64,000 nt of DNA from Candidatus Gastranaerophilales bacterium (GTDB lineage Bacteria; Cyanobacteriota; Vampirovibrionia; Gastranaerophilales; Gastranaerophilaceae), in the NCBI GenBank assembly GCA_944325665.1, contig CALVAY010000003.1, forward strand, positions 1 through 64,000, read 5' to 3'. Shown piece after piece: positions 16,028 through 48,281 of the stretch. Position 1 is the stretch's first letter. Each line of letters starts with the position of its first letter. The position numbers were made by a program, and so were the translations under genes. The notes under the pieces are model-generated. The model saw only the letters and a program-made list of their open reading frames with translations. It had not been told where the DNA came from and did no database searches.

Positions 16028-16381
16028 CTATTTTTTCCGTACTCTTATAATCCACTTAAGATTAGTATCGACAGTTTCATCAGTAAAGAGATTTAAATTG
16101 GGCAAGTAATCAATTCCACCCAAAGCCTCTTTTAGTTCTGCAAGAGAGGGGTCATCCAAACTTTGCCCGCTGCATTCAATCCAATTGAGCGGTATATTTG
16201 GGCCATACCACATAACAATAGAGCCAACAGGCACACTGTCTGAATCTTCATGGATAACCTTAACGGTTGCAGGCGGCTCTTTAGCTTTTTTTGTCATAAC
16301 GGGAGCCATAATAACAAGCATAATTGACACCATTAAGACAACAATTAACATTTCAGCTAACGTAAAACCATGTCTTTTCAT
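16028..16381 (-). CDS. Pilin-like protein with tail-collar-like C terminus
   Basis: About 117 residues. The N terminus is a classical type IV prepilin: short basic leader, cleavage between Gly5 and Phe6, Glu at mature position 5 (FTLAE) and a hydrophobic helix (about 6-28). The remainder does not look like a pilin globular domain but like a phage tail-collar module: PVGSIVMWYGPNIPLNWIEC near the middle, LPNLNLF, and a terminal KWIIRV strand. Such a fusion would put a collar fold on a pilus-type helix. SD AGGGGAAA supports ATG 16381. It is the last gene of the riboswitch-led operon. Confidence 0.75.
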   Translation of the reverse strand: MKRHGFTLAEMLIVVLMVSIMLVIMAPVMTKKAKEPPATVKVIHEDSDSVPVGSIVMWYGPNIPLNWIECSGQSLDDPSLAELKEALGGIDYLPNLNLFTDETVDTNLKWIIRVRKK

Positions 16382-16382
16382 A

Positions 16383-16865
16383 TTAATTTCCCCTATAAAC
16401 TTGTTGAGCATTTTTTGAACGTAAATATTCAAGAATAGCGCCGCCTATTTCTTCAGTCGGGTCAAAGTAAGGACAGTTTGGATAAAAGGTCTGCTTTAAA
16501 AACATTTTGTTCAATGGCCCAAACGCGTCAGGTATAAGCGTTTTTCTATAAATTCCCGAAAGCAGAACCTGAATATTTGGAGAATTTGTATCATTAAATC
16601 TTGAAAGAGTCGGATAAATATTTTCAACACCTTTTACTTTTTTATCTATCATTCTATCCAAAATATAAAGTCCCTCACAAACGGCCTTCTCGTCTTTTGC
16701 AATTCTAAGTGCGTTTTCAACATAGGGAAGAGCATTCTCACCCTCGCTTAGAATTTTATCTATCTTTTTGTAGTCAAATATACAATAATTTCTTGCAGAA
16801 TTCGGCAACTGAACATTTCTGCCTAAATTTTGAATATTAAAAGCTACAATCGGGTTTATGCTCAT
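16383..16865 (-). CDS. HEAT-like helical protein
   Basis: 160 residues without signal peptide or membrane helix. The region about 40-120 has HEAT/ARM-like helical pairs (ALPYVENALRIAKDEKAVCE, GLYILDRMIDKK). The N terminus is MSINPIVAFNIQNLGR. No function is known. SD GAGG lies 5 nt before the ATG. It lies 13 nt after the membrane protein gene and is followed 1 nt later by the pilin-like gene, so it is part of the operon begun at 19120. Confidence 0.65.
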   Translation of the reverse strand: MSINPIVAFNIQNLGRNVQLPNSARNYCIFDYKKIDKILSEGENALPYVENALRIAKDEKAVCEGLYILDRMIDKKVKGVENIYPTLSRFNDTNSPNIQVLLSGIYRKTLIPDAFGPLNKMFLKQTFYPNCPYFDPTEEIGGAILEYLRSKNAQQVYRGN

Positions 16866-16878
16866 TTTACCTCAATTA

Positions 16879-18420
16879 TTATGAATATACAAACGGAGGT
16901 CCGTTTTTTATTTCCATTAAGATGTTATCTGCCATAACCTTAAGCTCTTGGGGGGACTTGCCTGACTGCCTTTGCATTTCAAATTCTTCAATCAAAGGAG
17001 CAACAGCACTTTCTTTTTTAGCCTTAAAGTTTCTAATTTCAACATCGACCAATCTTTTTTGTAAATCAAGCTCAGTTTTAGCATTTTCTTTTAAAACCGC
17101 AACTTGTTTTAGCGCTTCTGCACTTTGCTGAGCAAGAAAACTTGTGCCGCTCACGGTTGCCATTGCATAAAATAAATGCTTTAAGAAAACATTATCATTG
17201 TGGATTATCCAATTATATAAATGCCCTCTGGCTTCGTTTAAATAACAGTAGAAAAAGGCTTTACCGCTTTCGGTGCTCATGCCTGTCGGAGCATTGCCCC
17301 AAATATTATCAACATTATAAGATACGCCATTTACGACATTTTCAATATCATCGGGACTCAAGCCTGCTTTTTTAGCACACTCACGGGCTTTTTCGGAATT
17401 AGCGCCCATTTTAGATAAAACATCAATTAGTTCATCTTTGCTTGCGCTTCCGCTTGAAATAAGGTTATCCAGAGTTTTTTGCTTTTGCTTTATAAAATCA
17501 TTGACAAAGTCATCTTGAATTTTTGCACTCTTTTTAAGGTTTTTAAGAGTAAAACCACCTAAAACAACAGCGCCTATAAGCATAGCGGATGACACAATTG
17601 TATATCCGTTAAGGTATTTTTTAAGGCCTTTTTTATCAGAGTCTTTGTCATTATTACTTTTATTGGCACCCATAAAGTTAAAATGTTTTAAATATACCGA
17701 AGTATTGAGATTTTGCTTTTGAGTTTGAACCCCAAGTGCATTTTTTAAGTATTCACCTTTTTTAGATAACATATCGCGCTGAAGAGCCAATTTTCCCGAG
17801 AAGGCTTCAGTTTCGACATCAATTAAACTTTCTTGCAAATCTTTTTGAATATCCGCGTCTTGTTTTTTAATCCAAATTTCTTTCACGCCCTCTACGAACT
17901 TTTTGGCGACAAGAGTTAAACCGCTAAAAGCAAAGACACATAGTGCAGCCATGATGTTTTTTCTATTTGGATCTCTAAGCGCCATATAAGTTGCAAAACC
18001 GGTTTCTTCAACAATATTTAAATTCATACCCATAGCCGGAAGTCTTTTTGATACGGCTTGAGTTATATTATTCTTTGCAGCACGATGAAAAATTAAACTC
18101 AATAGAGCACTTGAAGCAAATATGGTACCAGTTCCTAAGATAAGAGGCATAAGCGCTTTTTTAGTATCAAAACCGCCATCAGAATCCTTGTTAATATAAC
18201 TTTCTACATTAGTTTTGGTTTTATCTGATATAACAAGCGCATTAAATGTATCATCAAGGCTGGGTGTATCAGGATTATTGGCATCCTTAATAAAATTATT
18301 TACAACCACACCTTCAAGAGTAGCGTTTTTTTGTTTTAACTGGCGATTAGTAAGATACCTTGTACCTACACTATTATATTTGGGGCTCAGTGGATTTATT
18401 CGTGCGTCTGGCAATTTCAT
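16879..18420 (-). CDS. Four-pass membrane protein with coiled coils
   Basis: About 513 residues. Four hydrophobic segments are visible, roughly at residues 90-110 (LILGTGTIFASSALLSLIF), 150-172, 275-297 (SSAMLIGAVVLGGFTL) and 405-425. Lys/Glu/Gln-rich helical stretches lie between them and at the C terminus. No known family. The start (ATG 18420, with AAGGAAG immediately upstream) lies inside the preceding gene, overlapping it by 47 nt; a TTG at 18441 is an alternative. Second gene of the riboswitch-led operon. Confidence 0.68.
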   Translation of the reverse strand: MKLPDARINPLSPKYNSVGTRYLTNRQLKQKNATLEGVVVNNFIKDANNPDTPSLDDTFNALVISDKTKTNVESYINKDSDGGFDTKKALMPLILGTGTIFASSALLSLIFHRAAKNNITQAVSKRLPAMGMNLNIVEETGFATYMALRDPNRKNIMAALCVFAFSGLTLVAKKFVEGVKEIWIKKQDADIQKDLQESLIDVETEAFSGKLALQRDMLSKKGEYLKNALGVQTQKQNLNTSVYLKHFNFMGANKSNNDKDSDKKGLKKYLNGYTIVSSAMLIGAVVLGGFTLKNLKKSAKIQDDFVNDFIKQKQKTLDNLISSGSASKDELIDVLSKMGANSEKARECAKKAGLSPDDIENVVNGVSYNVDNIWGNAPTGMSTESGKAFFYCYLNEARGHLYNWIIHNDNVFLKHLFYAMATVSGTSFLAQQSAEALKQVAVLKENAKTELDLQKRLVDVEIRNFKAKKESAVAPLIEEFEMQRQSGKSPQELKVMADNILMEIKNGPPFVYS

Positions 18421-19120
18421 CTTCCTTGCGTTTGGGGTCAAACAATTTTCTTACTGCCTCTTTTAGTTCTTCTATTTCAAATTGCTTGAAAACTGACATT
18501 TCTTCATCAATTTTATTCTCGTCATCTTCAAAATCACTCTCAAGACCCAATACACTCAAAAGTTTTCTAAACTGTTTTTTAATAACTCTTGTAGCGTCAG
18601 ACAGCTTCTTCTGGACAAAATTTTCTGCTTCACCTATCAGCGCTGCAAGTTTTTGAGCAACTTGGGTAATTTCATTTCTTAATGCCTCAATTGCATTTGG
18701 TAAGGCTCTAACAAGTTGTGGCAGGTCTTTTATCATATTCAATAGAGGTTTTAAAACATTATTTGAAATTGTTGAAAAGACTTTTGCAACGGGCTTGGGA
18801 AGAGTATTTTGAATTTGATCCAAGACAGTAGAGATTTTAGTTGTAATGTTCAAAAGGGCCTCTTGCATTTTAGCTGCAAGTTGAGCATTTTTAAGCATCG
18901 CCTCTTGCATGGCTTCTTTTTGTGCGTCAGCCCTTTGCATTTGCTTCCATTGCGCATAACATTCCATATATGTCATCTCGCCCGGACGTCTAGGTTCATC
19001 CAATTTTTTTGTTGAACCGCCCCCGCCCATACCGTTACAGATAGGACATGCACCAAGTGGAAGCCCATGCGGACATGTATTTGCTCGAGTGTTAGTTACC
19101 TGCGGTAGAGTTGATACCAT
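18374..19120 (-). CDS. Zinc-knuckle coiled-coil protein, B12-riboswitch-controlled
   Basis: About 248 residues of unknown family. Near the N terminus is a likely metal site, CPHGLPLGACPICNGMGGGG (Cys16, His18, Cys25, Cys28). It is followed by a long amphipathic helical region (about 60-215) with two hydrophobic stretches (VAKVFSTISNNVLKPLLNMI and the next 25 residues), and a charged end. I start at ATG 19120: it has SD AAGGAA 6 nt upstream, and that SD lies inside the riboswitch-like hairpin. First gene of a four-gene operon. Confidence 0.7.
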   Translation of the reverse strand: MVSTLPQVTNTRANTCPHGLPLGACPICNGMGGGGSTKKLDEPRRPGEMTYMECYAQWKQMQRADAQKEAMQEAMLKNAQLAAKMQEALLNITTKISTVLDQIQNTLPKPVAKVFSTISNNVLKPLLNMIKDLPQLVRALPNAIEALRNEITQVAQKLAALIGEAENFVQKKLSDATRVIKKQFRKLLSVLGLESDFEDDENKIDEEMSVFKQFEIEELKEAVRKLFDPKRKEDEIARRTNKSTEPQI

Positions 19121-19123
19121 AAA

Positions 19124-19254
19124 AAATTCCTTGTGTTTTGACCGCAACAAGGAATTTATAAAATCTGCTCGGTACTCGCAAGACAGATTAATATAAGCTT
19201 TCCGACTCTACGGCTGCGGTCCAGTTAAGGATTTTCACCTTATTTCCTTTTTAT
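19124..19254 (-). ncRNA. Cobalamin-riboswitch-like leader with SD-sequestering hairpin
   Basis: On the minus strand the leader contains AGGAAAT (J1/3-like), GGTGAAAATCC (19239-19229), CTGGACCGCAGCCGTAG and AGTCGGAAAGC. These match, in order, the cobalamin riboswitch core words GGTGnAAnTCC, CnGnCCCGCnACTGTnA and AGTCnGAAnnC. Downstream, a perfect 10-bp stem (19157-19148 with 19133-19124) encloses the SD AAGGAA. Its loop carries TGCGGTC (19146-19140), complementary to GACCGCA (19221-19215) in the core, like the L5-L13 kissing loop. This predicts translational repression on ligand binding. Peripheral P7-P11 elements are absent, so it is a compact variant. Confidence 0.78.
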
Positions 19255-19260
19255 GGTTTT

Positions 19261-19289
19261 ATACTAGCATGTACCTATTTTCGTGTCAA
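19261..19289 (-). promoter_or_regulatory. Strong promoter TTGACA-N17-TAGTAT
   Basis: On the minus strand a consensus -35 TTGACA (19289-19284) lies 17 nt from TAGTAT (19266-19261), which is preceded by TGC. The predicted start is near 19254, giving a leader of about 134 nt that contains the riboswitch-like fold. Confidence 0.8.
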
Positions 19290-46883: not shown

Positions 46884-48281
46884 TCACTTTCTTTTAAAAA
46901 TTTTTAAAGCAACTCTTGAATAATTTACAAACTGCTTTAGCGAGCGGATTTTAAAGAGCATTTTAATGACATAAGAAAATCGCAAGTAGTAACTTCTGAC
47001 CATTTTTTTGTGATACTCAAAAACCTCATCACAGGTGAGATTGTGGGTATTAACACAAGGATAATAATAAGGCTTGGAATAATTTAATACACCTAAATAA
47101 TTATTTTCTATGTAACTGTAAAAATCAGTTCCCAAAAGCGGTGTAGCGGTATAGAAGCTAACAAAATCTGTATTTAATTTCTTTGCAAAAAGGAGAGTTT
47201 CTTCAAGCGTGCTCTTTGTTTCCCACGGCAGCCCGATTACGTAGTAGGCATAAATTGCGATGCCCAGTTTTTTAAAGAGCTTAACGGATTTTTCCACTTG
47301 TGAAAGGGTGATTTTCTTACCCATTTTATCGAGCATTTCCTGAGAACCGCTTTCTATACCCATTGAAACAAGGGTGCATCCGGCTTTTTTCATTAGTTTT
47401 ACCGTGTCAAAATCAACAGTATCAGCTCTTGTGTTGGTTGAAAAGGTGATTTTTAAGCCGCTTGAAATAATTTCATTGCAAAGTTCTTTGACCCAATCAT
47501 TATCAAGGTTAAAAATATCTGACCAAAAAACAAAGTTTTTTATTCCGTATTTTTCAACACAAAGCTTAATTTCACCGACAATATTTTTCGGACTTCGATG
47601 CCTTACTATCCTTCCGTTAATTGGTGTTGCAAGGCAAAAGAAACAATGATAAGGGCACCCTCTTGAAACTTTGATAATAGTTTGTTTTTCGCCAGTATCG
47701 GGACGAAAATACAAAGAGTTATCAATAATATCTCTATCAGGATATGGAAGCTCGTCTAAATTTTCGTTAAAAGGACGACGCTGAGTCTGAATAATTTCAA
47801 AACCGCGTCTGAATGCAATTCCTTGAATATCTTCCAACTTTTTATTTTTTAATATTTCATCAAAAGTAATTTCCGCTTCAGAACATATTGCAATATCAAT
47901 AAAATCGTGAGTTTCAAGAACCTCTTGCGGCATAAAGTGAAAATGTGCGCCTTTTGCAATGGTTAAAATATTAGGATTAACAACCTTTACTATACGAAGT
48001 GTTTCTATATCGCTCTCAAGAGTTGGCGTTGTAACATTAACAAGTACAATATCAGGTTTAAATTCCTTTAAGTCATCCTCAAAGTCCTTATAAGTTTGAG
48101 CTTTTAAGCTGTAATCTTTGAGCATAACCTCGCAGGAATTATTTTTTGCAATTGAAGATAAATACATTAAATCCATAGGAGGAAGAGGGGGGATAAGAAA
48201 AAGGTCATCAAGCGGTTGCTGACAACGCTCTTCCCTGTTCATAATTTTTGAGGGCGGATACACCAAAAAAACTTTTTTCAT
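46884..48281 (-). CDS. B12-binding radical SAM protein
   Basis: 465 residues. The N-terminal Rossmann-like cobalamin-binding domain (about 1-145; VFLVYPPSK, KPDIVLVNVTTPTLESDI) is followed by the radical SAM core with CPYHCFFC (about 207-214), IESGSQEMLDKMGK and YVIGLPWETKSTLEET. This is the layout of the class B methylase/HpnJ/BchE superfamily. The substrate is unknown, possibly a lipid or cofactor. SD AAGGGGG. It follows the SDR gene by 1 nt, so the two form an operon. Confidence 0.88.
   Translation of the reverse strand: MKKVFLVYPPSKIMNREERCQQPLDDLFLIPPLPPMDLMYLSSIAKNNSCEVMLKDYSLKAQTYKDFEDDLKEFKPDIVLVNVTTPTLESDIETLRIVKVVNPNILTIAKGAHFHFMPQEVLETHDFIDIAICSEAEITFDEILKNKKLEDIQGIAFRRGFEIIQTQRRPFNENLDELPYPDRDIIDNSLYFRPDTGEKQTIIKVSRGCPYHCFFCLATPINGRIVRHRSPKNIVGEIKLCVEKYGIKNFVFWSDIFNLDNDWVKELCNEIISSGLKITFSTNTRADTVDFDTVKLMKKAGCTLVSMGIESGSQEMLDKMGKKITLSQVEKSVKLFKKLGIAIYAYYVIGLPWETKSTLEETLLFAKKLNTDFVSFYTATPLLGTDFYSYIENNYLGVLNYSKPYYYPCVNTHNLTCDEVFEYHKKMVRSYYLRFSYVIKMLFKIRSLKQFVNYSRVALKIFKRK

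Follow-up and report, generated by a model that had tools for sequence, protein, structure and literature searches.

The window, a 64,000-nt stretch of a genome assigned to the Candidatus Gastranaerophilales, which are non-photosynthetic gut relatives of cyanobacteria, carries a row of three genes (A, B and C) and their leader on the minus strand. Protein A (18374–19120) is a Cys-rich, coiled-coil protein of 248 residues that combines a CPHG-x5-CPIC motif with long helices, and C16, H18, C25, C28 and C54 are invariant in the aligned set. Protein B (16879–18423) consists of 514 residues with three or four membrane segments and an internal two-fold repeat (hhalign probability 96.9%, E 3e-10). 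In most genera the conserved row continues with protein C (16383–16865; 160 residues) as its third member. The order A-B, usually A-B-C, is conserved, and protein A occurs in 175 of 192 Candidatus Gastranaerophilales genomes, nearly always in one copy. Proteins A, B and C match no Pfam or NCBIfam family over cut-off, in keeping with an earlier sequence-only reading of the locus that had proposed a target gene of unknown function. For proteins A and B, neither sequence nor fold searches of the PDB gave a significant match; their models are all-helical and of medium confidence (mean pLDDT 70; pTM 0.40 and 0.55), with best PDB E-values of 1.1 and 0.28. Matches of protein A to tape-measure and CT392 proteins were rejected as weak coiled-coil similarity. 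One or two in-frame stops occur in the protein A matches of six genomes and are possibly profile-match boundary effects, or decay. Directly after protein C, positions 16028–16432 of the same strand encode an unusual combination, a prepilin-type N-terminus fused to a phage tail-collar-like domain.

Every element of the leader is likewise encoded on the minus strand. The promoter consists of a −35 box TTGACA (19284–19289) and a −10 box TAGTAT (19261–19266) with a 17-nt spacer; it lies at 19289–19261 and agrees with the earlier description, in which no strand was given. The Rfam covariance model AdoCbl-II (RF01689) matches 19265–19190 with 43.1 bits against a curated cut-off of 36.5 (E 5e-7 at the scale of the 64-kb window; model positions 1–81 aligned), which bears out the cobalamin-type riboswitch that had been proposed. 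This is the single cobalamin-type Rfam match reported for the window; the larger related class Cobalamin (RF00174) matches the same leader weakly, with 25.7 bits, below its own cut-off of 31.5. Helix P4 and its loop (AAGG-TGAAAAT-CCTT) occupy 19241–19227, within which lies the core word GGTGAAAATCC. P5 (CTG/CAG) with L5 (GACCG, 19221–19217) forms the core word CTGGACCGCAG at 19224–19214, and P6 (CCG/CGG) the core word CCGTAGAGTCGG at 19213–19202. These words had been listed in cobalamin-riboswitch order and were located exactly, but the word CCCGCnACTGT that was called diagnostic is not present as such and is represented here by CCGCAGCCGT.

Transcription is predicted to start near 19254 from the position of the −10 box. 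Both this start and the −10 box overlap the Rfam match at its 5′ end, so the transcript probably lacks the model's P1. The P1–P3 part of the RF01689 alignment contains several missing or non-standard pairs, and the promoter overlaps the 5′ strand of P1; P1 is peripheral, and the score is reached without need of it. The leader had been suspected of being a short variant that lacks peripheral helices. It is compact, but this is simply the normal form of the class: the leader RNA belongs to the known riboswitch class AdoCbl-II (class II cobalamin) and is ordinary in kind.

The leader is conserved with its gene across the order. Distinct sequences upstream of the genes for protein A relatives number 119, and the aptamer core is present in 117 of them. 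Across 28 representative leaders, 97.5% of the cells of P4, P5 and P6 are paired and 41 cells are compensatory, with compensatory changes at three of the four P4 pairs and a UA to CG change in P5; P6 shows no variation in this alignment and is hence uninformative on covariation. The helix covariation of these representatives is 0.403 compared with 0.150 after shuffling (0/500) and at most 0.164 when the helices are slid; in this and the following shuffle tests of covariation and loop matches the relatedness of the sequences was left in. RF01689 matches occur in 177 of the 192 genomes, in many of them as a single copy just upstream of the protein A gene. Riboswitch and protein A are both present in 169 genomes and both missing in 9, while 8 have only the riboswitch and 6 only protein A (Fisher p 1e-7, with genomes counted without correction for relatedness). 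Eight of the nine genomes that lack both also lack BtuR (p 8e-5), and since the nine derive from about five lineages this joint absence is suggestive only. With the core in nearly all leaders and covariation in P4 and P5, the riboswitch class and the target gene are secure.

Downstream of the aptamer lie two hairpins. Hairpin II (19124–19157) sequesters the Shine–Dalgarno (SD) sequence AAGGA (19128–19132), which stands 7 nt ahead of the ATG start codon at 19120–19118. Its arms, AAATTCCTTG (19157–19148) and CAAGGAATTT (19133–19124), form the perfect 10-bp stem with a 14-nt loop that had been noted before, extended to 11 bp if T19147 pairs with A19134. An anti-SD of at least 6 bp is found in 71 of 117 leaders, and the translational expression platform of the sequence-only reading is supported. 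The loop sequence TGCGGTC (19146–19140) is complementary to GACCGCA (19221–19215) in the aptamer core, again as previously observed, and the complementarity extends to 9 bp with one G-U between GTTGCGGTC (19148–19140) and GACCGCAGC (19221–19213). Of the 18 perfect 9-bp hairpins with 8–20-nt loops in the window, hairpin II alone has in its loop a G+C-rich 7-mer with a complement within 120 nt upstream. Hairpin I (19156–19196), missing from the earlier description, is a P13-like hairpin with the apical loop CGAGTAC (19178–19172) that sits between the aptamer and hairpin II.

A hairpin I is found in this position in most leaders of the order. Its loop typically begins with CG, continues with one or two bulged bases and ends with bases complementary to the 5′ part of L5, as in the L5/loop pairs TGCCG/CGAGCA, CTGCCG/CGTGCAG, GATCG/CGAAATC, GGTCG/CGTCACC and TGTCG/CGACACA. 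Over 70 distinct combinations of genus, L5 and loop, the L5–hairpin I match score is 2.59 compared with 2.11 (s.d. 0.06) when the L5s are shuffled (0/5000). In the window's own genus this complement is weak and scores 1–2 of 3, that is CG plus one or two pairs. According to a review, a bulge of one or two bases in the interloop helix makes docking cobalamin-dependent (PMC10907184). Given this covariation between its loop and L5, hairpin I is the L5 kissing hairpin of the family as a whole, and the SD hairpin is a second, separate element. The sequence-only reading had assigned the L5–L13 kiss to the SD hairpin: the complement it pointed to exists and covaries with the core, but the order-wide partner of L5 is the separate hairpin upstream. 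Similarly, the covariation of a loop–loop pairing that it had sought in related leaders is found for L5 and hairpin I, but the SD-loop complement is restricted in its distribution.

TGCGG near the start codon occurs in the leaders of four genera only (28 entries, five of which are one genome repeated under two locus ids), and most genera retain hairpin I without it. The flank of the SD hairpin covaries with P5/L5 (3.43 compared with 2.67, s.d. 0.22; 3/5000 shuffles), and the longest pairing of the TGCGG region with the core reaches 11 contiguous bp in one leader. All 14 distinct leaders from the genus of the window retain YTGCGG. Its complement, CCGCAG, comprises half of L5 together with the 3′ strand of P5 and would therefore be unavailable while P5 is folded. 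The bases following TGCGG, which would matter for a pure kiss with L5, mismatch L5 in 3 of the 14 leaders (AA, CA and CT). The retention of YTGCGG while these bases vary points to a pairing that is exclusive with the folded aptamer, and we infer that an alternative pairing competing with the aptamer fits the sequences better than docking on an intact P5. In genera without TGCGG such a capture would need P3, whose 5′ strand (GAGGA) repeats the SD sequence in many genera and can therefore pair with the anti-SD. P3 capture was not retained as a general rule, the covariation of this extension being marginal (195/5000).

Taken together, the leader is likely, with a probability of about 0.8, to be an AdoCbl-II riboswitch through which high corrinoid represses A-B-C translation and which relies on a capture pairing without ligand; of this, we infer the ligand, the capture step and the sign of the control. 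When a corrinoid is bound the P3–P6 aptamer would fold, L5 of the folded aptamer would dock on the hairpin I loop, and closure of hairpin II over AAGGA would switch translation off. Without ligand, the 5′ arm and loop of hairpin II (GTTGCGGTC, plus TTCC) would instead capture GACCGCAGC, the strand of P5 and L5, together with the GGAA that ends P6. This capture would block formation of the SD hairpin and leave translation on.

Hairpin II might instead itself be P13, with TGCGGTC kissing GACCG of L5 on ligand binding to close the SD hairpin directly, largely in the manner of env8HyCbl, and hairpin I acting only as a spacer. In the window CGGTC/GACCG gives a perfect 5 bp over exactly L5, TGCGG is conserved throughout the genus, and the match of L5 to hairpin I is weak there. 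However, the part of the loop that all 14 leaders keep is the partner of the P5 3′ strand, while three of them lose the L5 match beyond it; the 7–9-bp helix would be free of the bulge tied to ligand dependence (PMC10907184), and the genera that lack this complement, which are the majority, still keep hairpin I. This arrangement is considered doubtful. Slightly less probable again is a hand-over in which ligand binding moves L5 from the loop of the SD hairpin to hairpin I and P5 is not invaded. The window's genus and genus g42 do possess both complements, but a hand-over offers no obvious route to opening the 10-bp SD hairpin, and the conserved complement reaches into P5. The apparent lack of P1, and a start codon that neither predicted fold of the window leader leaves unpaired, would also suit a decayed cobalamin riboswitch that has lost switching. 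This is very improbable given a score over the cut-off, invariant core words, compensatory changes in relatives and the retention of both promoter and SD.

The energetic case for the proposed capture, judged from predicted folds, is mixed. In the lowest-energy fold of the window leader the capture helix is present, with GGAA at the end of P6 placed on TTCC of the anti-SD. The mean unpaired probability of the SD is 0.62 in this leader and drops to 0.01 with the aptamer helices imposed. In the predicted ligand-free folds of four other members of the genus the SD pairs with the 3′ strand of P4 (unpaired 0.03–0.25), so that capture is not clearly favoured there. The lowest-energy folds of all leaders, in which pseudoknots and ligand are ignored, display no uniform on/off pattern. 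Folding predictions for the window leader also pair ACCATAAAAAG (about 19257–19247), at the 5′ end of its predicted RNA, over about 11 bp with the start-codon region (about 19127–19117) on the minus strand; this pairing was not seen in the leaders of relatives and is perhaps due to chance.

The leader resembles known AdoCbl-II RNAs such as env8HyCbl in its match to the full model, its P3–P6 core, its compactness and its lack of peripheral helices, and differs from them in the operon of unknown function downstream. The contact of L5 with a platform hairpin, a further mark of membership, is likewise seen as covariation across the order and is weak in the window's genus. In env8 the ribosome-binding site lies in the docking loop itself (PMC10907184), whereas in the window leader the SD hairpin and the L5-docking hairpin are separate. 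The same two-hairpin logic is known from E. coli btuB, where kissing stabilizes P13 and thereby promotes a separate RBS hairpin (PMC10653944), although aptamer class and gene are different. The RBS hairpin of the window leader has in addition a loop complementary to P5, which is not among the features described for E. coli btuB in the literature consulted.

Targets related to B12 are also typical of the class in this order. The window's own genome contains a second AdoCbl-II (C3:88913-88990) ahead of nrdD-nrdG (L034:9022-11600, outside the window), and in relatives AdoCbl-II precedes nrdD, metE, TonB receptor and OprB porin genes. Putative PFL targets of the riboswitch proved to be NrdD. Genes for nrdD, metE and TonB receptors are classical B12-repressed targets, and repression by B12 is the usual sign of control; by analogy, A-B-C is probably shut off at high B12.

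The genome encodes BtuR and NrdJ, the latter as two fragments at contig ends, and thus probably uses AdoCbl. Given NrdJ and the riboswitch at nrdD-nrdG, B12 probably controls which of two ribonucleotide reductases is used. MetH was rejected as the main B12 user, being over cut-off in only 7 of 192 genomes. No B12 synthesis cluster was recognized by eye around one BtuR copy of this genome, and the genome paper on gut Melainabacteria lists pathways for B2, B3, B5, B7, B9 and K, not B12 (PMC3787301). Within the window, a 472-aa frame has a B12-binding domain at 47853–48185 on the minus strand (PF02310, 55 bits) and is a possible corrinoid-binding or radical-SAM protein. Genera including g10, g42 and g44 keep riboswitch and protein A without convincing matches to NrdJ or BtuR, so that AdoCbl need not be the ligand everywhere; MeCbl or HyCbl may take its place there, or another adenosyltransferase may be used.

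Neither a TonB plug domain nor a FecCD permease was found in the window's own genome; among 58 relatives, 11 are positive for the plug and 12 for FecCD. Other families of the order have a cluster of TonB receptor, FecCD and ATPase genes after an AdoCbl-II (G040 and L231), and in G040 the riboswitch-led receptor is followed by FecCD, ATPase and binding-protein-like genes, the last two recognized by eye. Such clusters recall the corrinoid uptake genes BtuB-BtuC-BtuD-BtuF, to which A, B and C bear no detectable sequence or fold similarity. The presence of NrdJ and BtuR without a TonB receptor or FecCD makes A-B-C a candidate for corrinoid acquisition or handling, and corrinoid supply or handling is its most likely role. 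It would be a speculative extension of this to see in A-B-C a new system, independent of TonB and BtuCD, for corrinoid uptake or handling in gut Gastranaerophilales, whose genomes mostly retain B12-dependent NrdJ and BtuR and lack TonB receptors and FecCD permeases: no likeness to a TonB barrel, FecCD permease, ATPase or binding protein is detectable in proteins A, B and C, which do not look like a transporter.

The riboswitch is therefore of a known kind, and what appears to be new and uncommon is its target, an order-wide orphan operon under predicted corrinoid control. The leaders provide a natural series for the coupling of one aptamer to an SD hairpin set apart from it, and a further complement to the core is present in a few genera only. 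For the window's own genome, the genes examined (NrdJ and BtuR, with no TonB receptor or FecCD permease) do not explain the route of B12. In a widespread uncultured gut order, a near-universal operon without functional annotation would thus gain a regulatory input, corrinoid, and hence a testable role.
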